A stretch of 32,529 nt of DNA from an uncultured Blautia sp. (GTDB taxonomy: Bacteria; Bacillota; Clostridia; Lachnospirales; Lachnospiraceae), in assembly GCA_934409175.1 (NCBI GenBank), contig CAKRVX010000018.1:1-32529 (forward strand), given 5' to 3'. Both the position numbers and the translations under genes were made by a program. A model generated the notes under the pieces. It searched no databases and had not been told where the DNA came from. It saw nothing but the letters and a program-made list of their open reading frames with translations. The stretch's first letter is position 1. Each line of letters begins with the position of its first letter. Of the stretch, positions 2,985-26,760 are shown piece after piece.

Positions 2985-4544
2985 ATGTTGGAATTAAAAA
3001 AAGAAAGTGTTCAGATGCTCCGTATAAAGAATAAAGCAGTCAGTCAGGTTACTTTTGATGTGGATTATAATGTGCCGGATGTGAAACCGGATATGGGAAG
3101 GATCGTTCAGAGTGAAGCCGATATTTCCATGGATGAAGTTCGGCTCAGTGAAGGAAAGGCCTTTCTGAAAGGAATGCTGCATGCGGATATTTTGTATGTA
3201 AGTGAAAATGAAGGAATGATCTGCAGTTTTCAGGCCGGGCTGCCTATGGATGAAACCATGAACCTGGAAGGGATTCAGGGAGGAGATAAACTGTGTCTTA
3301 ACTGGGAGATAGAAGATCTGAGTGTACGAATGATTCATTCACGAAAACTGAATATTAAAGCCATTGTAACTTTTTATGCAGCAGTGGATGAGCTGGCTCA
3401 GGTGCAGATCCCTGTTGCTCTGGAAGAAAAGGACGTTTCTATAAAAAAGAAAAAAATACGAATTATGAGTCTGAGTGTAAATAAGAAGGATACGCTTCGT
3501 ATTAAGGAAGATATAAATCTTGCATCCAACAGACCGAACATAGAGTCCCTTTTATGGTACATAACTGAACCGCGAAATCTGGATCTGAGGCCGGAAAATG
3601 ATAAGATTTTTGTCAGAGGTGAATTATCGGTATTTGCCCTGTATATGGGAGCGGAAAAAGAAAATCCTCCCCAATGGCTGGAATATACTGTGCCATTTAA
3701 CAACGAGGTAGAATGTATTGGCTGTACAGAAGACCTGATTCCCCATATTGAGGTGGCGGTTTTGCATCATGCCATGGAGGTAAAACCTGACGGAGACGGG
3801 GAGGAGAGAATCCTTCAGACAGATGTGGTGCTGGAATTGAATATGAAACTTTACAGGGAAGAAGAACATGAACTGATCATGGATGTATACACACCTCGTA
3901 AAGAGTGCGTGATACAAAGAAATAAAGAACAGATGGAAAGTCTTCTGGTAAGAAATTTTTCCAGATGTAAAGTAACAGACCGTGTGGAAGTGAAAGAAAG
4001 TCAGGGAAAGGTATTGCAGCTCTGTCACAGCAATGGCAAAGTGAAAATCGATAAAACCAAAGTAACAGAAGACGGAATTATGGCAGATGGAATCATTATG
4101 ATGAAAATTCTGTATATTATTGGAAATGATGAAATGCCGTTCTATTCTATGGAAGTTATGCTTCCTTTTACACATCTGATCGAGGCAAAAGGCATCACAG
4201 AGGACTGCACATTCTTTCTTCAGGCGAATCTGGAGCAGCTGTCTACTACTATGGCAGATGGAGATGAAATTGAAATCAGGGCAGCCGTTGGACTAAATGT
4301 GCTGGTAATACATCAATGGGAGGAAATGGTTATTGATCAGGTAGATGAAAAGCCGCTTGACATAAAGAAAATAGAAGAAATGCCCGGCATTACAGTTTAT
4401 ATGGTAAAAACAGGAGATACATTATGGGATATTGCGAGACAGTTTTATACCACAGAGGATGAAATCTGTGCTGTAAATGGAATTACAGGGAAGGAAGTAA
4501 AAGCAGGGCAGTCGTTGCTCCTGATCAAACAGGTGCAAAATTAA
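2985..4544 (+). CDS. sipL: SipL-like spore morphogenetic protein (SPOCS/DUF3794 repeats plus LysM)
   Basis: This 519-aa protein contains SPOCS (DUF3794) repeats and a C-terminal LysM domain. A repeat is clear at about residues 25-150 (VDYNVPDVKPDMGRIVQSEA, then GMLHADILYVSENE). A second covers roughly 155-300, and a third roughly 305-445 (GIIMMKILYIIGNDEMPFYS, then LPFTHLIE). LysM lies at about 470-515 (YMVKTGDTLWDIARQFYTT ... VKAGQSLLLI). This order matches SipL of Clostridioides difficile, which binds the coat ATPase SpoIVA through its LysM domain and is needed to attach coat to the forespore. Its length is also close to that protein. There is no signal peptide, consistent with action in the mother-cell cytosol. 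AAGGA sits about 9 bases before the ATG. I see no strong terminator after the stop. Confidence 0.85.
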   Translation: MLELKKESVQMLRIKNKAVSQVTFDVDYNVPDVKPDMGRIVQSEADISMDEVRLSEGKAFLKGMLHADILYVSENEGMICSFQAGLPMDETMNLEGIQGGDKLCLNWEIEDLSVRMIHSRKLNIKAIVTFYAAVDELAQVQIPVALEEKDVSIKKKKIRIMSLSVNKKDTLRIKEDINLASNRPNIESLLWYITEPRNLDLRPENDKIFVRGELSVFALYMGAEKENPPQWLEYTVPFNNEVECIGCTEDLIPHIEVAVLHHAMEVKPDGDGEERILQTDVVLELNMKLYREEEHELIMDVYTPRKECVIQRNKEQMESLLVRNFSRCKVTDRVEVKESQGKVLQLCHSNGKVKIDKTKVTEDGIMADGIIMMKILYIIGNDEMPFYSMEVMLPFTHLIEAKGITEDCTFFLQANLEQLSTTMADGDEIEIRAAVGLNVLVIHQWEEMVIDQVDEKPLDIKKIEEMPGITVYMVKTGDTLWDIARQFYTTEDEICAVNGITGKEVKAGQSLLLIKQVQN

Positions 4545-4600
4545 CAGAAAAACCAAAATAGTTATTGAAAAATTTTTCATAAAAAACTGTTGTTCTCTTA

Positions 4601-4629
4601 TTGAAATAAAAAAAAAAATGTTTTAAAAT
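4601..4629 (+). promoter_or_regulatory. Sigma-A type promoter for ispE-gntR
   Basis: -35 TTGAAA (4601-4606), a 17-base A-rich spacer, -10 TAAAAT (4624-4629). Transcription would start near 4636, about 10 bases before the TTGTATACAA palindrome at 4645 and 58 bases before the ispE start. Confidence 0.7.
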
Positions 4630-4644
4630 AAAAACCAGAATGTA

Positions 4645-4654
4645 TTGTATACAA
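4645..4654. promoter_or_regulatory. Candidate FadR/GntR-type operator
   Basis: TTGTATACAA is a perfect 10-base palindrome. It fits the general TNGTNNNACNA half-site pattern described for the FadR subfamily of GntR regulators. It lies just downstream of the predicted transcription start of a unit that itself encodes a FadR-type regulator (5594-6313). Autoregulation by roadblock or promoter occlusion is a reasonable inference but is not proven. Confidence 0.5.
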
Positions 4655-4693
4655 AGTACAAAAAAACAACACAAAAGAATGTCGGAGGTATAT

Positions 4694-5563
4694 ATGCGGT
4701 TACGTGCACTGGCGAAGATAAATCTGGGACTGGATATTCTGAGAAAAAGAGAAGACGGGTATCATGAAGTGAGAATGATCATGCAGACCATACAGATGTA
4801 TGATGTTCTTGAATTGAAAAAAAAGAAAGCGCCAGGTATATCTCTTGCGGTAAATTATCCTTTTATTCCATCGGATGAGCGAAATCTGGTGTATAAGGCT
4901 GCGAAACTTCTGATGGACGAATTTCAGGTAGAACAGGGAGTTTCCATACGTCTTGATAAATTTATTCCGGTAGCGGCAGGTATGGCAGGAGGAAGTTCGG
5001 ATGCTGCTGCTGCTCTGGTGGGAATCAATCGTCTGTTTAAGCTGGGGCTTACAGAGAAAGAACTTATGGAGCGTGCAGTGAATATTGGGGCAGACGTACC
5101 TTATTGTGTAATGCGTGGAACTGCGCTGGCAGAGGGAATCGGTGAGAAACTTACCAGAATTTCCTGTATTCCGGAGTGCTATGTACTGGTAGGAAAGCCC
5201 GGGATCAATGTGTCCACAAAAACTGCATATGAGAGTCTGGAACTGGATAAGATACAGACTCATCCGGATATTGATGGAATGATTTGTGACATAGAGAATG
5301 GAGACCTTTATTCTATGGTCGAAAAAATGGGAAATGTATTTGAACAGGGAATTATTGGGAAATATCCGGTTATTCAGGATATAAAGAATCTGATGGAGAC
5401 ACATGGGGCATTAAAGGCTATGATGAGCGGAAGTGGTCCTACTGTGTTTGGAATATTTGACGACAGGGATAAAATGGAGAAAGCAGCAGCAGTTCTTCGG
5501 GAAAGCAAACTGGCGAAGACTGTTTTTGGCACAGAGATTTTTAATACACCGGTTTTGAAATAA
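4694..5563 (+). CDS. ispE: 4-diphosphocytidyl-2-C-methyl-D-erythritol kinase
   Basis: This 289-aa GHMP-superfamily kinase phosphorylates the 2-hydroxyl of CDP-ME with ATP in the MEP pathway to isoprenoid precursors. The N-terminal motif AKINLGLDI carries Lys8. The glycine-rich ATP loop PVAAGMAGGSSDAAAAL begins at about residue 92 and includes Asp103. The third GHMP motif near the C-terminus is MMSGSGPTVFG. The start is placed at 4694: GGAGG (4684-4688) lies 5 bases upstream, and MRLRALAKIN aligns with the usual family N-terminus. An in-frame ATG at 4640 would add 18 residues, lacks a ribosome site and falls almost on the predicted transcription start. gntR follows after 30 bases, probably in the same transcript. 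Confidence 0.95.
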   Translation: MRLRALAKINLGLDILRKREDGYHEVRMIMQTIQMYDVLELKKKKAPGISLAVNYPFIPSDERNLVYKAAKLLMDEFQVEQGVSIRLDKFIPVAAGMAGGSSDAAAALVGINRLFKLGLTEKELMERAVNIGADVPYCVMRGTALAEGIGEKLTRISCIPECYVLVGKPGINVSTKTAYESLELDKIQTHPDIDGMICDIENGDLYSMVEKMGNVFEQGIIGKYPVIQDIKNLMETHGALKAMMSGSGPTVFGIFDDRDKMEKAAAVLRESKLAKTVFGTEIFNTPVLK

Positions 5564-5593
5564 TGATGCATCAGAGAGCAGGAGGCAATACAA

Positions 5594-6313
5594 ATGACAA
5601 GTGATTTTTCTGTAAATATGAATGAATATCTGCCGTTACGTGATGTGGTGTTTAATACATTGCGTCAGGCTATCCTTAAGGGAGAACTTAAACCAGGAGA
5701 AAGGCTGATGGAAATTGCTCTGGCCGAGAAACTTGGAGTAAGCAGAACTCCCATCAGGGAAGCTATGCGTAAGCTGGAGCAGGAGGGGCTTGTAGTAATG
5801 ATTCCCAGAAGGGGAGCCCAGGTTGCCAACATCACGGAAAAAGATCTGAATGATGTTCTGGAAGTTCGAATTGCACTGGAAAATGTGGCAATTGAGAAAG
5901 CCTGTGCGCGTATGTCAGAAGAAGAAATGAGCAGATTGTGGCTGGCGGCCAAGGAGTTTGAACATACGATTGCAGAGGGTAATCTGGTAAAACTTGCAGA
6001 GGCGGATGTGGCATTTCATGAGATTATTTATCAGGCATCTGATAATAAAAGACTGATTCAGGTACTGAACAATATGCGGGAACAGATCTACCGTTATCGT
6101 GTGGAATATCTGAAGGAGGGCGAGACCAGAGATCTGTTGGTAAAGGAGCATGAGGAGCTGACAAAAGCTATCAGAGACCGGGATGTGGAGCGTGCGAAAA
6201 AGTTATCTTTTCAGCATATTGAAAACCAGCGAATGGCAATCATGCGTTCCATTGAAGCGGAGAATGCAGAGAGAGCCAAAGCTGAAAAAGAGAAATCAAG
6301 AGGACATAAATAA
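5594..6313 (+). CDS. GntR family (FadR subfamily) transcriptional regulator
   Basis: This 239-aa protein has an N-terminal winged helix-turn-helix at about residues 12-80. Characteristic GntR residues are AILKGELKPGERLME, LAEKLGVSRTPIREAMRKLE, and LVVMIPRRGAQVA. The all-helical FCD ligand-binding domain spans about residues 85-215. Its metal/ligand positions include Asp and His residues in the EADVAFHEIIYQAS segment and later helices (KEHEELTKAI, SFQHIENQRMAI), as expected for metal-dependent FCD domains that sense organic acids. The C-terminal tail is charged. GGAGG (5581-5585) lies 8 bases before the ATG. It is in the ispE unit and is followed by a strong terminator. A matching palindrome upstream of ispE suggests autoregulation. 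The ligand is unknown. Confidence 0.88.
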   Translation: MTSDFSVNMNEYLPLRDVVFNTLRQAILKGELKPGERLMEIALAEKLGVSRTPIREAMRKLEQEGLVVMIPRRGAQVANITEKDLNDVLEVRIALENVAIEKACARMSEEEMSRLWLAAKEFEHTIAEGNLVKLAEADVAFHEIIYQASDNKRLIQVLNNMREQIYRYRVEYLKEGETRDLLVKEHEELTKAIRDRDVERAKKLSFQHIENQRMAIMRSIEAENAERAKAEKEKSRGHK

Positions 6314-6335: not shown

Positions 6336-6365
6336 AAGAGAGGTGAGCAGCCTCTCTTTTTCTTT
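6336..6365 (+). terminator. Intrinsic terminator after gntR
   Basis: AAGAGAGG (6336-6343) pairs with CCTCTCTT (6351-6358) around a 7-base loop and is followed by TTTCTTT. It ends the ispE-gntR transcript. It also shows that the in-frame ATG at 6343, which falls on the stem, is not the start of the next gene. Confidence 0.9.
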
Positions 6366-6397
6366 GCAAAAATATGAGAAGTTTTGCCGGAGGAAGA

Positions 6398-6445
6398 ATG
6401 CTGCAGGGTACAGTAAAACAGGAGGAATTGTTTTGGAAGAAATAG
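6398..6445 (+). CDS. Possible 15-codon leader ORF overlapping the gerA start
   Basis: ATG at 6398 has GGAGG (6389-6393) 4 bases upstream and opens a 15-codon frame ending in TAG at 6443-6445. It overlaps the TTG start of the GerA-type gene (6433) by 13 bases in a different frame. The ribosome site is good for such a short frame. It could couple or damp translation of the receptor. No homology can be claimed for the peptide, and it may be chance. Confidence 0.3.
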   Translation: MLQGTVKQEELFWKK

Positions 6446-7938
6446 CAGACAGAGAAAGAAAGATATCCGTAAATCTCCGTGAAAATGAGAAATATCTTGG
6501 AGAACGGCTGAAAAACTGCAGTGATATTCTTGTTCGTTCCATGAAGCTTGGGGACAGGCAAAAAGTAGACTGTCTGATGGTTTATGTGGAAGTAGCAGTG
6601 TCCAATATGATGCTGGATGATTCGGCCCTTGGGAAAATGATCAATCATTTCTGGGAAATCTCTCCGGATCAGATACAGGAATTTGTACAGAATAACAGCC
6701 TGGGAATTGCCGATGTAAAAAAACTTGAAGGGATGGAAGAAGCTATTGAAGCTATGCTGACCGGAGATGCTGTATTTTTTATGGATGGCTATGATAAGGC
6801 CATGAAAATTTCCAGTAAAGGATATCCTGGAATAGGAGTGTCACAGGCAGAGACGGAGAAAGTTCTCAGAGGATCGAAAGAAGGGTTTTCAGATAGTGTA
6901 AAGAGCAACAGTGCGCTTGTAAGGAAAAGACTGCGGGATACCCGAATGAAGGTGGAAGAATATCGTATAGGTGTTCGTTCTCATACATTGGTGCAGATAT
7001 TGTATATGGATGATCTGGTACATGAAGAACTTCTGGAAGAGGTGAAGGAACGGATGGAGGAATTTGAGATTGACGGAATCATGGACAGCGGTATGCTGGA
7101 ACAGCTGACGGAAGATGCGTGGTATTCACCATTTCCCCAATATCAGACTACAGAGAGACCGGACAGGGCTGTGCAGGAAATCCTGAATGGAAAAGTAGTG
7201 ATTTTGTGTGATAACTCTCCGGAAGCGTTGATTCTTCCAGGGAATTTCAACAGTTTTATGGAGAGCAGTGAGGACTGGTATCACAGGTTTGAGATGGCAT
7301 CTTTTCTTCGGAGTTTGCGGTATCTGGCTGTGATCATGGCAACAATCCTTCCGGGACTTTATCTGGCAGTAATTCGTTTTCATACTCAGATTTTGCCTTC
7401 CAATCTGATTCTGTCTTTTGCGGAAGCGAGGGAAGGAGTACCTTTTTCCAGTGTTGTGGAACTTGTTTTTCTGGAACTTGCATTTGAGCTGATCAGAGAA
7501 GCGGGAGTACGGGTTCCGGGATCCCTGGGAAATGCAATAGGAATTGTAGGAGGTCTGGTGATCGGACAGGCTGCTGTGGAGGCTAATCTCGTAAGTCCTA
7601 TTGTAGTGATGATCGTCGCGCTTACAGCGCTGGGATCTATGACAGTTCCCAATGAAGAGTTTGCTTCAGCCTTTCGCCTACTGAAATATTGTTTCCTGAT
7701 CCTGGGCGGATATCTTGGGATTTATGGGATTGTTTTGGGAATTTATTTTACGGTAGGACATCTGGCAGGACTGTTAAGTTTCGGAGTCCCGTATATGGTA
7801 CCATTTATTAAAAAAGAAAACAGGCAGCAGGCCGGAGAGGGAATCTGGAGGATTCCTCTTCGCAAAAGGAAAAAGCGTCCATTGTATGCCAGGGAAGAAC
7901 AAAGTGTCCGGCTGAAAAGAAAGGAGGAGAGACAATGA
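6433..7938 (+). CDS. Spore germination protein, GerA family (germinant receptor A subunit)
   Basis: This is a 501-aa GerA-type subunit of a spore inner-membrane germinant receptor. Residues about 1-250 form the cytosolic N-terminal region, with segments typical of the family (DILVRSMKLGDRQKVDCLMVYVE near the start and KSNSALVRKRLRDTRMKVE later). The rest is the membrane domain, which begins after FASFLRSLRYLAVIMATILPG and contains GVPFSSVVE, ELIREAGVRVP, GNAIGIVGGLVIGQAAVEAN and SMTVPN. These are the GerA signature blocks. I place the start at TTG 6433, 7 bases after GGAGG (6421-6425). The frame stays open to an ATG at 6343, but that lies in the preceding terminator hairpin. The stop overlaps the next gene by 4 bases. 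A and B subunits together form the channel-like receptor that responds to small nutrients. The germinant is unknown. Confidence 0.93.
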   Translation: MEEIADRERKISVNLRENEKYLGERLKNCSDILVRSMKLGDRQKVDCLMVYVEVAVSNMMLDDSALGKMINHFWEISPDQIQEFVQNNSLGIADVKKLEGMEEAIEAMLTGDAVFFMDGYDKAMKISSKGYPGIGVSQAETEKVLRGSKEGFSDSVKSNSALVRKRLRDTRMKVEEYRIGVRSHTLVQILYMDDLVHEELLEEVKERMEEFEIDGIMDSGMLEQLTEDAWYSPFPQYQTTERPDRAVQEILNGKVVILCDNSPEALILPGNFNSFMESSEDWYHRFEMASFLRSLRYLAVIMATILPGLYLAVIRFHTQILPSNLILSFAEAREGVPFSSVVELVFLELAFELIREAGVRVPGSLGNAIGIVGGLVIGQAAVEANLVSPIVVMIVALTALGSMTVPNEEFASAFRLLKYCFLILGGYLGIYGIVLGIYFTVGHLAGLLSFGVPYMVPFIKKENRQQAGEGIWRIPLRKRKKRPLYAREEQSVRLKRKEERQ

Positions 7939-9647
7939 AATTTGCAGAAAATAACAGAGTCTCTCATCGACAATTGTACAGGCAGATCATATTGGAACTA
8001 CTGGCGCCGTTTTTACTTTGCATGTCGGGAAAGGACTGGCCTTATGCAAAGGGTGGGCTGGATGATGGAAACGGACTGCTGGGGTTGGGAATTGCGTTGG
8101 TATTGCTGGGACTTTATGTGGTTTTTCTGATCAGGCTGGAGCCATATTTTGCGGACCTGACAAAAACAACAGGTATATTTATGGGGCGGGTTATCGGCAT
8201 TTTTTTCTTGGTGTTTGTTTTGCTTGCCGGAGGATATCTGGTGTCTGTAATTGCAGATCTGGTACCCGTAAGTTTGATCACAGGAATAGATGGGAAATGG
8301 ATTTCTCTTTGGGCGGTGATCGTGTGTGCAGCAGGTACCTGGAAGGGAATGCAGCGCAGAGGAAGAATGGCAGAAGTATCGGGAGGATTTTTTGCCGGGG
8401 GAATTCTGCTTATGATAATTCTTTGTATTCTGCAGGGAAATCTGTCATATCTGAAAGAGATGACAGAGACATGGACCTTTTCACCGGGAACTGTTCTGGA
8501 GAAGATGTACGGGATTTTGTGTGCGTTTTCAGTGATCGGGCTACTTCCGTTTCTTCTGAAAGATGTAGAGAAATATGGGAGTGCGGGTAAGGCGGTTGCG
8601 GGGGGGATTTTCACGACAGGAGGAATTCTGGCAGGAGTGAAGATCCTTCTTCCGGCGGTCCTGGGAATGGACAGGGTGAGAGCAGAAGACTATCCGGTAC
8701 TGCCGTTGCTGGATGGAGCTGATCTGCCGGGAAATGTGCTGGCGAGGTTTGATGTTCTGTGGATAGGCTTTCTGTTGTACAGTCTGCTCTTTGCACTGGG
8801 CAGTCTGATGCATTATGGGCATCAGATTAGTTGCGGGACGCGACTGGGAAAAGGACGCATATGGATGCCGGCAATAATCTGGATTTTTTCACAGATTTCC
8901 ATAGATGGACTGGAAATCCGACAGTATTTTGTCTGGTATCTGAGCTACATTTTTGTGCCTGGACTCCTGATCTGCCAGGTTTATGTGTATTTTAAAGGAA
9001 AAGGCCGATACAGGAAAAAGACGGTGGCATTGGCTTTGTTCATGGTCTGCAGTCTGTTCTTTGGGGGCTGTGGATCTGCAGTAGAACCGGAAAAAAGGAT
9101 GTATCCACTGGCTCTGGGAGTAGATGCTTCTGCGGAGGGAATACTTGTTACTTATGGAATGCCGGATCTTTCGCAAAGTACGGGGCAGGGTAAGGAGGAA
9201 GAGGACAGCAGTGCACGGGTACTGCAGATTACTGGCAGTGATTTTCATGAGATCACACAAGTCTATGATCGTTCTCAGGAGAAATTTCTGGATATGGGAC
9301 ATGTTCAGGTCCTTATTCTTGGACAAACAATTCTGGAAGATGGAAGATGGAGAATGGTACTGGAATATTTGAAAGAGAATCCGTTTACAGGGGAGGATAT
9401 TTATGTTTTCGAAACTACACAGGCGCAGGAGGTTCTGAAGTGGCATGGGGAAAATAACTCCTGTGCAGGAGAGTATATTACCGGTCTGATGGAAAACCGG
9501 ATGTCCGGGCAGAGAAATTCAGCTGTTACATTGAGAGATGTATTTTATCAATGGTATAAAAACGATTCATTGCCTGTATTGCCGGAAATCACAGTGACAG
9601 ATTCTTCACTGGAAATTGTGGGGCTTAAACAGAGACAGACTGAATAA
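7935..9647 (+). CDS. GerB-GerC fusion: germination permease joined to a GerC-like lipoprotein domain
   Basis: This 570-aa protein appears to join two receptor subunits. Residues about 1-355 form a GerB-type spore permease of the APC superfamily with about ten hydrophobic helices; YFVWYLSYIFVPGLLICQVY is the last. Next come a basic patch (KGKGRYRKK), a hydrophobic run and a lipobox-like LFFGGC with Cys at residue 379. The rest (GCGSAVEPEKRMYPLALGVD onward) resembles the N-terminal domain of GerC lipoproteins, including FLDMGHVQVLILG and YLKENPF. The reading frame is continuous, with no internal ATG and ribosome site at the junction. The GerC part is only about 190 residues, roughly half a usual GerC; the C-terminal Spore_GerAC region is not seen. 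The start overlaps the gerA stop by 4 bases, with GGAGGAG upstream. Signal peptidase II could in principle release the C part as a lipoprotein. Confidence 0.8.
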   Translation: MKFAENNRVSHRQLYRQIILELLAPFLLCMSGKDWPYAKGGLDDGNGLLGLGIALVLLGLYVVFLIRLEPYFADLTKTTGIFMGRVIGIFFLVFVLLAGGYLVSVIADLVPVSLITGIDGKWISLWAVIVCAAGTWKGMQRRGRMAEVSGGFFAGGILLMIILCILQGNLSYLKEMTETWTFSPGTVLEKMYGILCAFSVIGLLPFLLKDVEKYGSAGKAVAGGIFTTGGILAGVKILLPAVLGMDRVRAEDYPVLPLLDGADLPGNVLARFDVLWIGFLLYSLLFALGSLMHYGHQISCGTRLGKGRIWMPAIIWIFSQISIDGLEIRQYFVWYLSYIFVPGLLICQVYVYFKGKGRYRKKTVALALFMVCSLFFGGCGSAVEPEKRMYPLALGVDASAEGILVTYGMPDLSQSTGQGKEEEDSSARVLQITGSDFHEITQVYDRSQEKFLDMGHVQVLILGQTILEDGRWRMVLEYLKENPFTGEDIYVFETTQAQEVLKWHGENNSCAGEYITGLMENRMSGQRNSAVTLRDVFYQWYKNDSLPVLPEITVTDSSLEIVGLKQRQTE

Positions 9648-9759
9648 GAAATGGAAAATATGTCCATGATATAGGGGAACAGTGAAAATCAGAATAACAA
9701 TGAGCCAGAAAATTGAGAAGAGAATATACATCTGGTGTGAAAAAGGAGATATGAATATT

Positions 9760-10017
9760 ATGGACAGAAAAAAATTCAGAATGAAACAATTACGAAAAAG
9801 GATCCGTGCAGCGTTTCTGGCAGGGCTGGCAGGTGCTGTTCTGGTAAATGCTGCGCCAGGATATATAAATATTTTAGCGTCAAGGAACAGAGAGCAGAGA
9901 GCAGTATCTGCGTGGTGGGGAACTATTTACCCCAAATTCTGTTTTGCAGATGCGAAAAAGGACGGAAAAGACAGTGTAAAGATTTCCTTGTGGCTTGCAC
10001 AGGCTCTGGATTGGTGA
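9760..10017 (+). CDS. Small exported or membrane protein of unknown function in the germination operon
   Basis: This protein is 85 aa from the ATG at 9760, which has AAAAGGAG (9741-9748) 11 bases upstream. An in-frame ATG at 9751 is only 2 bases from that site. A longer 111-aa version could begin at GTG 9682, which has AGGGG 4 bases upstream. I do not recognise the family. The N-terminus is strongly basic (MDRKKFRMKQLRKRIR), followed by one hydrophobic segment (AAFLAGLAGAVLVNAA) that could be a signal peptide cut after VNA or a membrane anchor. The remaining 50 or so residues include WWGTIYPKFCF with a single Cys and end in WLAQALDW. It lies 112 bases after the GerB-GerC gene and 41 bases before murI on the same strand. 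Some ger operons encode small D subunits, which is one possible role. Confidence 0.6.
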   Translation: MDRKKFRMKQLRKRIRAAFLAGLAGAVLVNAAPGYINILASRNREQRAVSAWWGTIYPKFCFADAKKDGKDSVKISLWLAQALDW

Positions 10018-12099: not shown

Positions 12100-13836
12100 A
12101 TGAGTGAAAAAAAGCCTGACTCTGAAATGACAGAGGAGAGACTTTCAGAAGAGACAGAAGTTCATACGAAAGAGCCGGAAACTCCGGAAGAAGAGATGGA
12201 AACTGCTACAGAAGAAACAGAAACTCCGGAAGAAGAGCCGGAAACTGTTGCAGAAGAAACAGAAACTTCCGACGAGGAAAAAGAAGGCACAGATACGGAG
12301 GATGGGGACTTTTTTTATGATGATGAAAAGGCATATGAAGCCAGAAAAGCAGCACGTATGGAACGTCGCCTGAGACAGAGACGCCGGAAAAGAAGACGGC
12401 GTATTGTGGGCGGCGTTATTGTAGCAGCTGCGGCAGCAGTGGGTATAAGTGTTGGATTTTATGGCGATCAACTGCAGGCATTTGTGAAAGAGCAACAGGT
12501 TAGGATTGTGCAGTTTGTAGAAAAAAAGAATACGGAAATCCAGAAAGAAACAGAGATTGCCCAGACTTCCGCAGAACCTGAGCAGGAAGTGGACCAGACA
12601 CAGGAGACAGTATCGGATCAGGATGCGTTAAGTGCAGATGATAAAAAACTGTACAGAAGAGCAAAGCGCTGTGCCCAGCAGTATGATTATGATAAAGCGA
12701 TCCAATTATTAAAGAGCAGTCCTAATTATAAGACAAATAAGAAACTGAGAAAAGCGGCCAGAGTTTATAAAAAGAAAAAAGAATCCTGTGTATCCTGGCC
12801 TCTGGATCAGGTTACCCATGTGTTCTATCATACGTTGATCAAGGATACATCCAAGGCCTTTGACGGTGATTACAAGTCAGGTGATTATGATCAGGTTATG
12901 ACTACTATCGATGAATTTAACAAGATCACTCAGAGTATGTATGACAGGGGCTATGTCATGGTCAGTATTTATGATCTGGCGAAGGCGGATGAGAATGGCA
13001 ATATGACAAGCGGAGAAATCCTTTTACCAGAAGGTAAAGTGCCGTTTGTGCTTTCTGAGGATGATGTATGTTATTATCATTATATGGATGGCGATGGATT
13101 TGCATCCAAACTGATCGTAGATGATGATGGAAAAGTACGTAATGAATATATAGAAGATGATGGCAGTGTTTCAGTGGGAGACTATGATGTGGTACCGTTA
13201 ATTGACCGGTTTGTGGAGGAACATCCTGATTTTTCCTATCGTGGAGCCAAGGGTATCGTAGCACTTACCGGATACAACGGAATTTTGGGATATCGTACAG
13301 ACAGCAGCTATGAGACGCGACCGGATGATCTGGATGCAGATAAAGTACAGTGGCTTGAGAATCATCCGGATTTTGATCTGAATACAGAAAGAGAAGGAGC
13401 TAAGAAAGTTGCACAGGCGATGAAGGATGAAGGATGGCTGTTTGCAAGCCATACCTGGGGGCATCAGAATGTAAGTCAGATCAGTCTGGAGAAACTGCAG
13501 ACGGATACCCAGAAATTTAAAGAAAATGTAGATCCTCTCATAGGAGGAACAGATATTATTATTTTCGCCTTTGGGGCAGATCTTACAGGTGCAGAAGATT
13601 ATTCGGGAGAGAAATTTGAATATCTTAAGAGTCAGGGATATAATTATTTCTGTAACGTAGACTCCAGCAAGTATTTTGTTCAGATACGCAGCAATTATCT
13701 CCGTATGGGAAGAAGAAACCTGGATGGATACCGGATGTATTACAATCCGGATATGCTTTCGGACCTGTTTGACGCTCAGGAAGTCTTTAACCCTGACAGA
13801 CCGGTACCTGTACCTCCAATGGGTAACAGTAACTAA
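12100..13836 (+). CDS. Membrane-anchored polysaccharide deacetylase-like protein with an acidic N-terminal tail
   Basis: This is a 578-aa protein with three parts. Residues 1-80 are extremely acidic with repeated ETPEEE and TEETET units. Residues about 82-103 are Arg/Lys-rich (RRLRQRRRKRRRRI), followed by one membrane helix (VGGVIVAAAAAVGISVGF). This places the acidic tail in the cytosol and the rest outside. After a helical stalk, residues about 235-560 resemble a NodB-type deacetylase. The first motif reads LSEDDV (Asp321, Asp322) instead of TFDDG but keeps both Asp. The second is SHTWGH (His451, His455), the usual metal-binding HxxxH. Activity on peptidoglycan or another surface glycan is therefore plausible but not certain. 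AAAGGAG lies 7 bases before the ATG. The next gene starts 12 bases after the stop, so they form an operon. Confidence 0.8.
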   Translation: MSEKKPDSEMTEERLSEETEVHTKEPETPEEEMETATEETETPEEEPETVAEETETSDEEKEGTDTEDGDFFYDDEKAYEARKAARMERRLRQRRRKRRRRIVGGVIVAAAAAVGISVGFYGDQLQAFVKEQQVRIVQFVEKKNTEIQKETEIAQTSAEPEQEVDQTQETVSDQDALSADDKKLYRRAKRCAQQYDYDKAIQLLKSSPNYKTNKKLRKAARVYKKKKESCVSWPLDQVTHVFYHTLIKDTSKAFDGDYKSGDYDQVMTTIDEFNKITQSMYDRGYVMVSIYDLAKADENGNMTSGEILLPEGKVPFVLSEDDVCYYHYMDGDGFASKLIVDDDGKVRNEYIEDDGSVSVGDYDVVPLIDRFVEEHPDFSYRGAKGIVALTGYNGILGYRTDSSYETRPDDLDADKVQWLENHPDFDLNTEREGAKKVAQAMKDEGWLFASHTWGHQNVSQISLEKLQTDTQKFKENVDPLIGGTDIIIFAFGADLTGAEDYSGEKFEYLKSQGYNYFCNVDSSKYFVQIRSNYLRMGRRNLDGYRMYYNPDMLSDLFDAQEVFNPDRPVPVPPMGNSN

Positions 13837-15284: not shown

Positions 15285-16634
15285 ATGGATAAGCGGGTCT
15301 TGCGCGAGAGAATGCGCAGAAAAAAACGTCAGATGATGATTCGACGGTACACGAAAATGGGCTTGTATGTAGTTGGGCTGATTCTGGCAATCGTGTTTGT
15401 GGTCAGAGGGATTATTATTCCTGTAGCACACCATATAGCTGGTGGTGGAAGTGGGAAAGAAACAGTACAGGCTCAGGCCGAAACTGAGCAGGAGGCTTCA
15501 GATCCTAATGCAGCAGTGCGACAGCCGCTAAAGGGTCAGTCGGATACAGATAAGATTACTACTGTTACGGCTGGATGGCATGAGGATGCCAATGGAAAAT
15601 GGTATCAGAATGCAGATGGTACATATTATGCAAATGGATTTCAGGATATAGATGGAACAACGTATTCCTTTGATGAGAACGGTTATATGCAGACGGGTTG
15701 GATCACAAAGGGAGTGAATGACTATTATTTTAATGATGATGGTTCTTATGACCCATCACAGAAACGACCGATGCTTGCATTAACTTTTGATGATGGTCCT
15801 GGGGAGTACACGGATGAACTTCTGGATTGTCTGGAACAGAATAATGCTCATGCGACATTCTTTATGCTTGGACAGAATGTATCAGCATATCCGGATGCGC
15901 CGAAGCGTATGCTTGAATTAGGATGTGAGATTGGCAGTCATTCCTGGGATCATACACAGCTTACTACAATTGACATTGATTCGGTTGCCAAACAGTTTTC
16001 TGATACAGATAATGCACTGATCGATGCGTGCGGACAGGCAGCATCTGTTGCACGAGCACCATACGGAGATGGAAACACGGACATTTATAATACGGTAGGA
16101 AAGCCGTTCTTTATGTGGTCATTGGATACAGAAGACTGGAAACTGCTGGATGCAGATGCCGATTATAATGCAGTTATGAATGGAGATCTTACAGATGGCT
16201 CTATTATTCTGATGCATGACATTCATGAACCATCGGTGCAGGCAGCATTAAGACTGATTCCTGATCTCATTGCCAAGGGATATAAACTTGTAACAGTCAG
16301 TGAGATGGCAGAAGCGAAGAATGTAACCTTGCAGAATGCCTGCTATGTGGATTTCTGGCAGAGTAATCTGGACAGTGGACAGGTGGCCGGATATCAGGGT
16401 AATACAAATACGGACGCAAATACGTCAGATGGTTCAGATACATCATCAGATGGAAGTGATTCTTCTGACAGCAGTGATTCTTCAGACGTAAGCTCTGATG
16501 GAGATGGATCTGACAGCTATGATGACGGAAGTTCGGATGACGAAAATTATGACGATGGAAGCTCCGGCGACGACAGTTACGATGATGGAAGTTATGATGA
16601 TTCTGAAGATTACAGTGATGACAGTGGATATTGA
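15285..16634 (+). CDS. Cell-surface polysaccharide deacetylase (NodB) with cell-wall-binding repeats and Ser/Asp tail
   Basis: This is a 449-aa exported protein. A basic N-terminus (RERMRRKKRQMMIRRYTK) precedes a signal anchor (MGLYVVGLILAIVFVVRGII). Residues about 98-148 carry choline/cell-wall-binding-type repeats (GKWYQNADGTYYANGFQDID, then YSFDENGYMQTGW). The NodB domain spans about 160-345. Its first motif is LTFDDGPGEY (Asp169 metal ligand), the second is GSHSWDH (His219, His223), RAPYGDG is the third, and MHDIH near residue 310 supplies the last. These are the complete catalytic motifs of peptidoglycan N-acetylglucosamine or related deacetylases. From about residue 378 the tail is almost only Ser, Asp, Gly and Tyr. 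GGGG lies about 11 bases before the ATG. A strong terminator follows. No LPxTG sorting motif is present. Confidence 0.92.
   Translation: MDKRVLRERMRRKKRQMMIRRYTKMGLYVVGLILAIVFVVRGIIIPVAHHIAGGGSGKETVQAQAETEQEASDPNAAVRQPLKGQSDTDKITTVTAGWHEDANGKWYQNADGTYYANGFQDIDGTTYSFDENGYMQTGWITKGVNDYYFNDDGSYDPSQKRPMLALTFDDGPGEYTDELLDCLEQNNAHATFFMLGQNVSAYPDAPKRMLELGCEIGSHSWDHTQLTTIDIDSVAKQFSDTDNALIDACGQAASVARAPYGDGNTDIYNTVGKPFFMWSLDTEDWKLLDADADYNAVMNGDLTDGSIILMHDIHEPSVQAALRLIPDLIAKGYKLVTVSEMAEAKNVTLQNACYVDFWQSNLDSGQVAGYQGNTNTDANTSDGSDTSSDGSDSSDSSDSSDVSSDGDGSDSYDDGSSDDENYDDGSSGDDSYDDGSYDDSEDYSDDSGY
16426..16631 (+). repeat. Low-complexity Ser/Asp/Gly-coding repeat
   Basis: Degenerate GATGGAAGT / GATGATGGAAGT units repeat through the 3' end of the secreted deacetylase gene, coding for SDGSD, SDSSD and DDGSYDD-type units. 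The region is coding, in frame and free of stops until the gene end. Confidence 0.8.
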
Positions 16635-19247: not shown

Positions 19248-20303
19248 ATGGCAACAAAAATTGATATTATTTCTGGATTTTTAGGTGCGGGTAAAACTAC
19301 ACTGATCAAGAAACTTCTGAAAGAGGCATTTGGTGATGAACAGGTTGTACTGATCGAGAATGAATTTGGTGAGATTGGTATTGATGGCGGTTTCCTGAAA
19401 GAGGCAGGAATTGAAATCCGTGAAATGAATTCCGGATGTATCTGCTGCTCTCTGGTTGGCGATTTCGGTACTTCTTTGAAAGAAGTTGTAGACAAGTATC
19501 ATCCGGACAGAATTCTGATTGAACCATCAGGGGTAGGTAAACTTTCTGATGTTATTAAAGCTGTGCAGGGCGTTCAGGGAGATGTTGATATTGTACTGAA
19601 CAGTTATACAACTGTAGTAGATGCAAAGAAATGCAAAATGTATATGAGAAACTTTGGCGAGTTCTTTGATAATCAGGTAGAATATGCCGGAGCTATCATT
19701 ATGAGCCGTACAGATATTGTGGATGAGAAAAAAGCACAGCAGGCAATGGAACTTCTCCGTGGCATGAATGAGAAAGCAGCGATCATCACCACTCCGATTG
19801 ACAAACTGGATGGAAAGAAAATTCTGGAAGTTATGGAGAAACCTGTATCTCTGGCAGACGAACTTATGGCAGAAGAAGAGGTTTGCCCGGAATGCGGACA
19901 TGTACATGAGCATGGAGAGCATCACCATGATCACGATCACGAAGAACATGAACATCATCATGATCACGACCATGAATGCGGCTGCGGACATGATCACCAT
20001 GATCATCACCACCATCACGCAGATGAGGTGTTCACAAGCTGGGGACGTGAGACGATTAAGAAATATACAAGAGAAGATCTGGAGAAGAAGCTGGAAGCTC
20101 TTTCTGCTTCTGAAGATTATGGAATCATTCTTCGTGCAAAAGGTATGCTTCCTGCAGAAGACGGAACATGGATCTACTTTGACATGGTTCCGGAAGAAAC
20201 AGAAATTCGTGAAGGTGCTCCGGAATATACAGGACGTCTGTGTGTGATAGGTTCCAAGTTGAAAGAAGATAAACTGGCAGAGCTTTTCGGACTGGCAGAA
20301 TAA
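19248..20303 (+). CDS. CobW/G3E family metallochaperone-type GTPase with CxCC and His-rich loop
   Basis: This is a 351-aa G3E GTPase. The P-loop is GFLGAGKTT (residues 10-18), followed by ENEFGEIGID. The metal-binding CxCC appears as GCICC (Cys64, Cys66, Cys67). The Walker B-like segment is ILIEPSGVG, and the base-specificity motif is SRTD. Residues about 211-258 form a metal-binding insert with CPECGH, many alternating His and Asp, and CGCGH. The C-terminal CobW_C domain (about 262-351) contains ILRAKGMLPAEDGTWIYFD. Members insert or deliver metals such as zinc or cobalt to target proteins using GTP. The metal and client here are unknown; the loop favours zinc, cobalt or nickel. AAAAGGAG precedes the ATG. 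The related gene at 20336 follows 32 bases later. Confidence 0.9.
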   Translation: MATKIDIISGFLGAGKTTLIKKLLKEAFGDEQVVLIENEFGEIGIDGGFLKEAGIEIREMNSGCICCSLVGDFGTSLKEVVDKYHPDRILIEPSGVGKLSDVIKAVQGVQGDVDIVLNSYTTVVDAKKCKMYMRNFGEFFDNQVEYAGAIIMSRTDIVDEKKAQQAMELLRGMNEKAAIITTPIDKLDGKKILEVMEKPVSLADELMAEEEVCPECGHVHEHGEHHHDHDHEEHEHHHDHDHECGCGHDHHDHHHHHADEVFTSWGRETIKKYTREDLEKKLEALSASEDYGIILRAKGMLPAEDGTWIYFDMVPEETEIREGAPEYTGRLCVIGSKLKEDKLAELFGLAE

Positions 20304-25548: not shown

Positions 25549-26760
25549 ATGAAAGAAATGGCAAAGAGAACAGCCGTTGTGACACTGGCTGGTATTATGG
25601 CAGCAGGAATGCTTACAGGCTGTGGCAGTAAGGGATTAGATGGAACGAAGACAGTGGCAACGATTGATGGAACAGATATTCCACTGGGAATTGTAAGTCT
25701 GTATGCGCGTCAGCAGCAGGAACAGACTACGGCCATGTATTTAAGTTTCATGGGAAGTGCAGATAATATCTGGGATCAGACATCGGATGATTCTGGAGAG
25801 ACATATGGAGAGCAGGCGGTAGACAGCAGTCTGAAAGCGGTAGAGCTTATGTATCTGTTGAAGGAGAAGGCATCTGATTATAAAGTAGAAGTGACAGATG
25901 ATGAGGAAACAGCCATTGCAGATGCTGCATCACAATTTATGGCCGCAAACAGTGAAGATACGATCAAAGAGCTGGGTGTTACAGAAGACCAGGTAAAGAC
26001 ACTTCTGGAACTTCAGACAATTCAGAAAAAGATTTATGATCCAATCGTAGCAGAGGGGAATATTACAGTATCGGATGATGAAGCAAACCAGTCTTCTTTT
26101 ACTTATGTCAGTATCTCCACAAGTGGTGAGGATATGACAGATGATGAAAAGACTAAGAAGAAAGAACAGGCACAGGAGATTCTCGATAAAATGAAAGAGG
26201 ATCCGACTGCTGATATGAGCGAAATTGCGAAAGCAGTAGATGACAGCTATTCTGCAGTACAGGGTAACTTTACAGTTAAAGAAAATGAGGATGAAGATGA
26301 TTCCAGTTCTTCTGCATATCCTGAAGAGGTTCTGAAAGTACTTCGTGGTCTGAAAGACGGAGAGGTTGCATCTGATATTATTGAAACAGATACAGGATAT
26401 TATGTAGTAAGACTTGATAAAACTTTGGATGAGGATGCTACAGCTTCCAAGAGAGAGTCTCTCCAGAAGTCTAAAGAGAGTGATTATTATACAGAGACAA
26501 CGGATGGATGGCTGGATAAAGCTGATGTGAAAGAAGTTAAGAAAGTTCTTAAGACTCTGAAGATTACGGACAGTCATACATTTACAGCACCGACTTCAAC
26601 CCCGACACCGTCACCGGAGGCAACAGAAACTCCAGAAGTGACTGAAGTACCTGAAGCAGAGACAACAGCGACTCCAGAAGTTACTGAAACACCAGAGGCT
26701 ACCGAAACGCCAGAAGCTACCGAGACACCGGAAGCAACAGTTACGGAAGCTGCCAAATAA
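25549..26760 (+). CDS. PrsA-like peptidyl-prolyl isomerase / foldase lipoprotein
   Basis: This lipoprotein is 403 aa from the ATG at 25549, which has GGAGG (25539-25543) 5 bases upstream. The frame also allows an ATG at 25537, but it overlaps that site. The signal peptide ends in the lipobox MLTGC followed by GSKG. Residues about 30-180 are helical and SurA/PrsA-like. A parvulin-type rotamase domain spans about 180-300 (FTYVSIST, EEVLKVLRGLKDGEVASDII, then TDTGYYVVRLDKT). It should help exported proteins fold outside the membrane, as PrsA does. The last 55 residues are a Thr/Pro/Glu tail of TPEATE-type units, probably disordered and possibly wall-spanning. A very strong terminator follows. 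It is the second exported isomerase lipoprotein in the window, after the trigger-factor-like one. Confidence 0.86.
   Translation: MKEMAKRTAVVTLAGIMAAGMLTGCGSKGLDGTKTVATIDGTDIPLGIVSLYARQQQEQTTAMYLSFMGSADNIWDQTSDDSGETYGEQAVDSSLKAVELMYLLKEKASDYKVEVTDDEETAIADAASQFMAANSEDTIKELGVTEDQVKTLLELQTIQKKIYDPIVAEGNITVSDDEANQSSFTYVSISTSGEDMTDDEKTKKKEQAQEILDKMKEDPTADMSEIAKAVDDSYSAVQGNFTVKENEDEDDSSSSAYPEEVLKVLRGLKDGEVASDIIETDTGYYVVRLDKTLDEDATASKRESLQKSKESDYYTETTDGWLDKADVKEVKKVLKTLKITDSHTFTAPTSTPTPSPEATETPEVTEVPEAETTATPEVTETPEATETPEATETPEATVTEAAK
26594..26745 (+). repeat. TPEATE-coding tandem repeat
   Basis: Imperfect units of 15-18 bases (ACTCCAGAAGTTACTGAA and variants) repeat in the 3' end of the foldase gene and code for TPE(A/V)TE. 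The codons vary between units, which points to selection on the protein rather than recent slippage. Confidence 0.8.

Follow-up and report, generated by a model that had tools for sequence, protein, structure and literature searches.

A GerB-GerC fusion with a half-length GerC in an uncultured Blautia sp. is a previously unreported form of the Ger germinant receptor

What kind of germinant receptor is encoded when the B and C subunits share one chain and only half of GerC is present? The question is raised by the gerBC gene of an uncultured Blautia sp. (Lachnospiraceae), which lies in a stretch of 32,529 nucleotides that was analysed as a whole and is called the window here (contig CAKRVX010000018.1, assembly GCA_934409175.1, positions 1 to 32,529). 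In current receptor models A is the channel, B binds the germinant and the C subunits are arranged as a ring at the outer face, five or six protomers making up the assembly (PMC13170314, PMC11841064). The gerBC gene (7935-9647, forward strand, as for all window features below) is a single ATG-to-stop frame of 570 codons; it follows gerA in the same cluster, its start codon and the gerA stop sharing the 4 bases ATGA (7935-7938). The initial annotation of this DNA had placed a GerB permease, a basic patch, a lipobox-like LFFGGC with Cys379 and an N-terminal GerC half in this one frame, and had suggested profile searches of the C part and a comparison with related loci; frame length, patch, motif and cysteine position were all exact.

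From its N-terminus the protein consists of the GerB part, an APC-type permease (residues 1-353, 7935-8993), the basic linker KGKGRYRKK (residues 354-362, 8994-9020), a lipoprotein-type signal helix of 16 residues (363-378, 9021-9068), the lipobox Cys379 (9069-9071) and the GerC N-terminal domain (residues 380-570, 9072-9644). Pfam profiles bore out the proposed order, with PF03845 (Spore_permease) on residues 49-287 (35.1 bits, cut-off 23.4) and PF25198 (Spore_GerAC_N) on residues 382-554 (90 bits, cut-off 27) on either side of the lipobox; PF05504 gave no match up to E 1. In NCBIfam, TIGR00912 scored below its cut-off on the B part (41.3 against 139.55 bits), which by its sequence is a divergent Spore_permease member. 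TIGR02887 (Ger(x)C) aligned residues 365-564 to its positions 4-205 of 371 with 84.9 bits, below the cut-off of 163.25, and because this whole-GerC model is covered only over those positions, the C part is, on sequence grounds, half a GerC. The fusion thus shares with GerC lipoproteins the PF25198 domain and a lipobox cysteine after a signal-length helix, and differs from them in having neither PF05504, nor a full TIGR02887 score, nor a gene product of its own. The C-terminal GerC domain, also reported missing by the initial annotation, was found neither in the protein nor just downstream: the next open reading frame (9682-10017) was considered as the missing domain and rejected. Public records label the fusion proteins only as "GerAB/ArcD/ProY family transporter".

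The predicted model of the B part has the APC transporter fold, and the first-ranked Foldseek match was LAT1 (8kdg_B, E 7.0e-8). The predicted local distance difference test (pLDDT) score fell below 50 at residues 358-389. The GerC-part model matched the fold of the B. subtilis GerBC crystal structure 3n54 weakly; Foldseek returned nothing for it at E 0.001, and 3n54 was absent among the 50 matches listed. Sequence searches of the PDB gave a single match for the fusion profile, an amino acid transporter at E 0.038, and nothing near GerBC for the window GerC part alone.

Next, we examined whether the fusion is genuine. A contig scan supplied the 13 nearest relatives, of which 8 genomes are titled Blautia and 5 only Clostridia or Eubacteriales; together with the window they form a group of 14 sequences. 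In all 13 a single frame of 555-588 aa covers the B and C parts; gerA precedes it, and murI follows in most cases. A database protein search matched 782 proteins; among the 120 listed, 116 carry both PF03845 and PF25198, three carry PF25198 only and one PF03845 only. Gly378 and Cys379 are invariant in 56/56 aligned sequences while the preceding helix varies freely, and the linker is basic in 14/14 group sequences. The ratio of nonsynonymous to synonymous substitution (dN/dS, NG86) was 0.07-0.23 in the B part (6/6 pairs), 0.09-0.16 in the C part (5/6 pairs) and 0.14-0.30 in the junction region; dS often exceeded 1, and in one pair it was saturated in two regions, the C part among them. Given the same frame in the relatives and in the listed homologues, the invariant Gly378-Cys379 and the low dN/dS, we concluded that the fusion itself is neither chance nor a sequencing slip.

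In every one of the 13 relatives' genomes PF25198 and PF03845 each have a single match, always in the fusion frame, which supports the proposal that the receptor is reduced; PF05504 was found by profile search in none of them (0/13). B. subtilis, the control for the PF25198 and PF05504 genome searches, was detected. By these PF25198 and PF03845 matches gerA-gerBC seems to be the sole Ger-type receptor of the Blautia group; extra GerA copies were not searched for. Compared with GerA-family receptors (GerA, GerB and GerK of B. subtilis; GerXA/XB/XC of clostridia), the locus has the same PF03323, PF03845 and lipobox plus PF25198 in one cluster, but B and C form one chain instead of separate proteins and PF05504 is missing from all 13 relatives' genomes.

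To see how far the arrangement extends, 298 genomes of the family were drawn. PF25198 was absent from 233 of them and present once in each of the other 65, one being a Blautia wexlerae genome already counted among the relatives; the subunits at the other 64 loci were annotated with A, B and C profiles built in this analysis. Whereas all of the nearest relatives are fused, these loci comprise 28 fused (16 A-BC with half and 12 with full GerC) and 36 split (20 A-B-C with half GerC, 11 A-B-C and five A-C-B with full GerC), so that GerC is half-length in 36. "Full" was assigned by length, and 7/28 such loci gave no PF05504 match; over the 64 loci PF05504 matched 21, 18 of them over cut-off. Counting the 13 relatives and the window, 42 of 78 loci are fused, 50 have a half-length GerC and all 78 have a GerA match. 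Trees built from GerA alone and from A+B+C require at least 17 changes of the fused/split state and at least 6 of GerC length, counts that give the number of changes and not the direction, gain or loss. Since shuffled labels needed more changes (20-32 for fusion state, 18-27 for length), both traits follow kinship. When branches under 99 in the Shimodaira-Hasegawa-like approximate likelihood ratio test (SH-aLRT) were collapsed and resolved most favourably, at least 14 fusion changes and at least 4 length changes were left. There are 17 maximal fused clades, seven of which hold two or more genomes. A single origin, with all fusions in one clade, was rejected by the approximately unbiased (AU) test (p 5.9e-6; a quick tree, with the fused group defined after the states were known).

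The initial annotation had treated the fused, half-length receptor as one design. Both traits are present in the window, but they do not form a single trait: half-length GerC is equally common in split and fused loci (Fisher p 0.61, 73 loci), and an association between them was rejected on this result. Half GerC is therefore no product of fusion, and the two are separate traits; in the nearest split relatives, L065 and L076, GerC is already half-length. Nor is the fusion species-specific.

At class level, 272 of 391 genomes sampled have PF25198, and no frame longer than 542 aa occurred among the best-scoring PF25198 matches listed. The fusion profile A1 matched 44/391 genomes and spanned both halves in G002 only. 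Eight other A1-matched loci were fetched, six picked for their long frames and two more: L112, L114, L115, L116 and L117 have the B and C profiles in one frame, L113 shows the C profile only but looks alike, and the remaining two are unfused. Their GerA scores of 364-452 bits suggest that these loci lie outside Lachnospiraceae; judged by sequence, then, the fusion recurs across this family and in other Clostridia. We found no report of a natural GerB-GerC fusion in the open-licence literature, preprints excluded, and the words fusion, fused and truncated are all absent from PMC5083711. We concluded that the fusion is a real, widespread and previously unreported form of the known Ger receptor.

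The junction retains signs of how the chain may have arisen. Among 31 split A-B-C loci, 26 have their best GerC start inside the end of gerB, 14 of them with an overlap of 4 bases (ATGA or GTGA) and one, L102, with a doubtful one of 137 bases; in the split neighbours L065 and L076 the shared bases are ATGA and GTGA. A start with Shine-Dalgarno energy of -8 or better no more than 45 codons before the cysteine is present in 28/31 split GerC genes, in 0/14 group fusions and in 2/28 other fusions (L062 at -10.7, L071 at -8.4). This threshold was set after the baselines were known, in-frame ATG codons inside B averaging -3.55 and GerB starts -10.56. The window has in-frame GTG and TTG codons before Cys379, the best of which (-6.7) is a TTG 11 codons before the cysteine. 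A separate internal start for C in the group was rejected on this count. An ancestral gerB/gerC overlap appears to have become one frame, after which the separate start would have decayed; with the C start and its ribosome site gone, the fusion is established and no recent slip.

The lipoprotein signal, on the other hand, has been kept. The lipobox cysteine is present in 14/14 group members, 23/28 other fusions and 28/31 split GerC genes; eight loci were scored by hand as having no clear lipobox, and an automatic pattern, which accepts L093 and L097, gives 25/28 for the other fusions. The charge-free length before the cysteine is 15-19 residues in the group (median 17), 13-20 in other fusions (16) and 13-20 in split genes (16), with no significant difference between fusions and split genes (p 0.39). 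With 16 residues and FFGGC at its end, the helix is by its sequence a lipoprotein signal and not a simple transmembrane segment. Fusions with no clear lipobox cysteine beside the GerC domain are L091, L092, L093 and L108, which make up one clade, plus L097; these five are natural candidates for an uncut tether. Since the signal is kept in independent fusions, Lgt and, by default, signal peptidase II would still be expected to act on it, as the general lipoprotein pathway has it. LspA (PF01252) was found in 12/13 relatives' genomes.

We propose that B and C are made 1:1 from gerBC, that Cys379 is lipidated and the chain probably cut there by signal peptidase II, and that the product serves as the sole receptor of the group; we put the probability of this reading at about 0.5. 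Two overlapping cistrons would have been joined, in this lineage or an ancestor, and B and the half-length GerC would be translated only as one chain. GerB would be a 10-helix APC permease and, by analogy with GerAB, the ligand sensor; ten helices have been reported for clostridial GerXB (PMC4161481). GerB would end on the cytosolic side, and the basic tail and former signal peptide of GerC would lead out through the membrane: coming next after an even number of helices (ten in B), the signal helix should run outward and place the GerC domain outside. Lgt would then lipidate Cys379 and signal peptidase II probably cut before it. The products would be an ordinary GerC N-domain, held by its lipid on the outside of the inner spore membrane, and a GerB that has gained one helix at its C-terminus. 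From there on such a receptor would function as one built from three proteins does, B and C always being synthesized 1:1. A B-C chain fits the 1:1 complex of the receptor models, and the stability of C and A depends on B (PMC8617281). Were the chain to end up as two proteins, repeated interchange of the fused and split states, seen here at least 17 times, would be expected. In its widest form the proposal is a polyprotein receptor, with a functional lipoprotein signal inside the chain behind a ten-helix sensor, C released by Lgt and signal peptidase II, and a cost-free fusion repeatedly gained or lost in Clostridia and once extended to SpoIIR (GerB-GerC-SpoIIR in L087); this we advance tentatively, at a little under even odds.

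Several points weigh against cutting. LspA was not found in G003 (PF01252 search). To our knowledge, there is no established example of signal peptidase II cleaving behind a domain of ten helices. The frequent swapping of fused and split states fits an uncut tether too, and the 5/28 other fusions with no clear lipobox cysteine next to the domain keep B and C in frame all the same, which suggests that an uncut tether can function in some cases. Diacylglycerol addition presumably blocks signal peptidase II cutting according to a review (PMC11841064), and it is seemingly non-essential (PMC4161481). A chain left uncut, in which Cys379 is perhaps lipidated, the helix remains embedded as an eleventh transmembrane segment and the GerC domain is held on B permanently, is accordingly a real though minority possibility. 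B and C adjoin in the receptor anyway (PMC13170314, PMC8617281), and OpuABC-type transporters likewise carry a binding or receptor domain that a former signal sequence links to the preceding transmembrane domain (PMC2861598), although the families are unrelated and OpuA has a signal anchor where gerBC has kept the full lipobox. A pure span would need neither signal-peptide length nor a full lipobox, yet both are kept throughout the group and in most other fusions, and LspA is encoded in all but one of the relatives. The initial annotation had offered both readings, a fixed 1:1 receptor with an internal lipid anchor or a polyprotein cut at Cys379. That signal length and lipobox match those of GerC made on its own favours cutting, without proving it, and for this reason we place cutting somewhat ahead of the uncut chain. 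The partner in the LAT1-4F2hc heteromeric amino acid transporters is a separate, disulphide-linked protein, unlike the fused GerC. The predicted B model resembles LAT1, with no sequence kinship shown, and the analogy of an outer partner on an APC transporter has been drawn for the Ger receptor (PMC8617281).

Other explanations of the locus fared worse. It is improbable that fusion and loss of half of GerC are signs of a receptor going out of use in poorly sporulating gut bacteria: PF25198 is indeed missing from most family genomes drawn, PF05504 has been lost in the group and the adjacent SpoIIR is shrunken too, but dN/dS is well below 0.3 in both halves, lipobox, frame and neighbourhood are conserved in the 13 relatives, and half-length GerC is common to 50/78 loci. 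Very unlikely is an internal translation start from which C would also be made separately; the GTG and TTG codons of the window and the starts retained in L062 and L071 would allow it, while no group fusion reaches the energy threshold, set post hoc, that lies between internal ATG codons and GerB starts. As for a missed frameshift joining two genes, one indel at the overlap would be enough in principle and lone fused cases in draft genomes could be such artefacts; the same frame in 13 independent assemblies and in most of the 120 listed homologues, together with the loss of the C start and ribosome site, refutes it for the group and leaves it a negligible chance.

Several features around gerBC were also recorded. 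The upstream gerA (6343-7938, A subunit, PF03323 550 bits) is listed as 531 aa from a GTG; a TTG start at 6433, preceded by AGGAGG, appears likelier. A terminator-like hairpin with T-run lies just upstream of gerA (6336-6358); the region holds 5 sites of this type where 2.5 would be expected, and a promoter scan returned 8 sites for an expectation of 6.6. Short tandem repeats (15-42 bases) lie within genes at 12170-12267, 16518-16600, 19905-19969 and 26674-26735, the first within the acidic N-terminal stretch of a 578-aa frame (12100-13836). Downstream of gerBC, the frame at 9682-10017 (likely start ATG 9760, 85 aa) is a candidate mini-SpoIIR, short and membrane-anchored, carrying AWWGTIYPKFCF and a KISLWLAQALDW end and sitting where relatives have full SpoIIR. 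Its profile matched 40 SpoIIR-like frames with probability 95 and E 3.3e-8 over 37 columns. The motif is present in 13 loci including the window, the pattern missing L004 and L011, and a variant occurs in L065 and L076. PF09551 is absent from 13/13 group genomes and from G233, G129 and G177, and present in G302, G303 and G034. Two loci join SpoIIR to GerC: in L087 a minus-strand frame (3840-6170) encodes GerB, half GerC and SpoIIR in 776 aa (PF03845, PF25198, PF09551), and in L106 (4800-6014) half GerC is joined to SpoIIR in 404 aa with gerB separate.

These forms may matter for the prediction of sporulation. SpoMAG, whose 16 most informative genes include gerC and spoIIR, classifies 24/24 of its own Lachnospirales metagenome-assembled genomes, Blautia included, as non-sporulating (PMC12536801). 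A fused half GerC and a shrunken SpoIIR could escape gene-list predictors of this kind, and missed gerBC and SpoIIR could lie behind such calls. The function of GerC has been stated as unknown (PMC8617281). Fused, split, full, half and Cys-less forms within one family offer a ready set for separating the roles of the lipid anchor, the 1:1 ratio and a free GerC, and, if the chain is cut, an internal lipoprotein signal would serve as the joint of a polyprotein. The apparent sole Ger-type receptor of these genomes works with half a GerC tied to the sensor; if half a GerC suffices in a natural receptor, its essential part is narrowed to the N-terminal domain.

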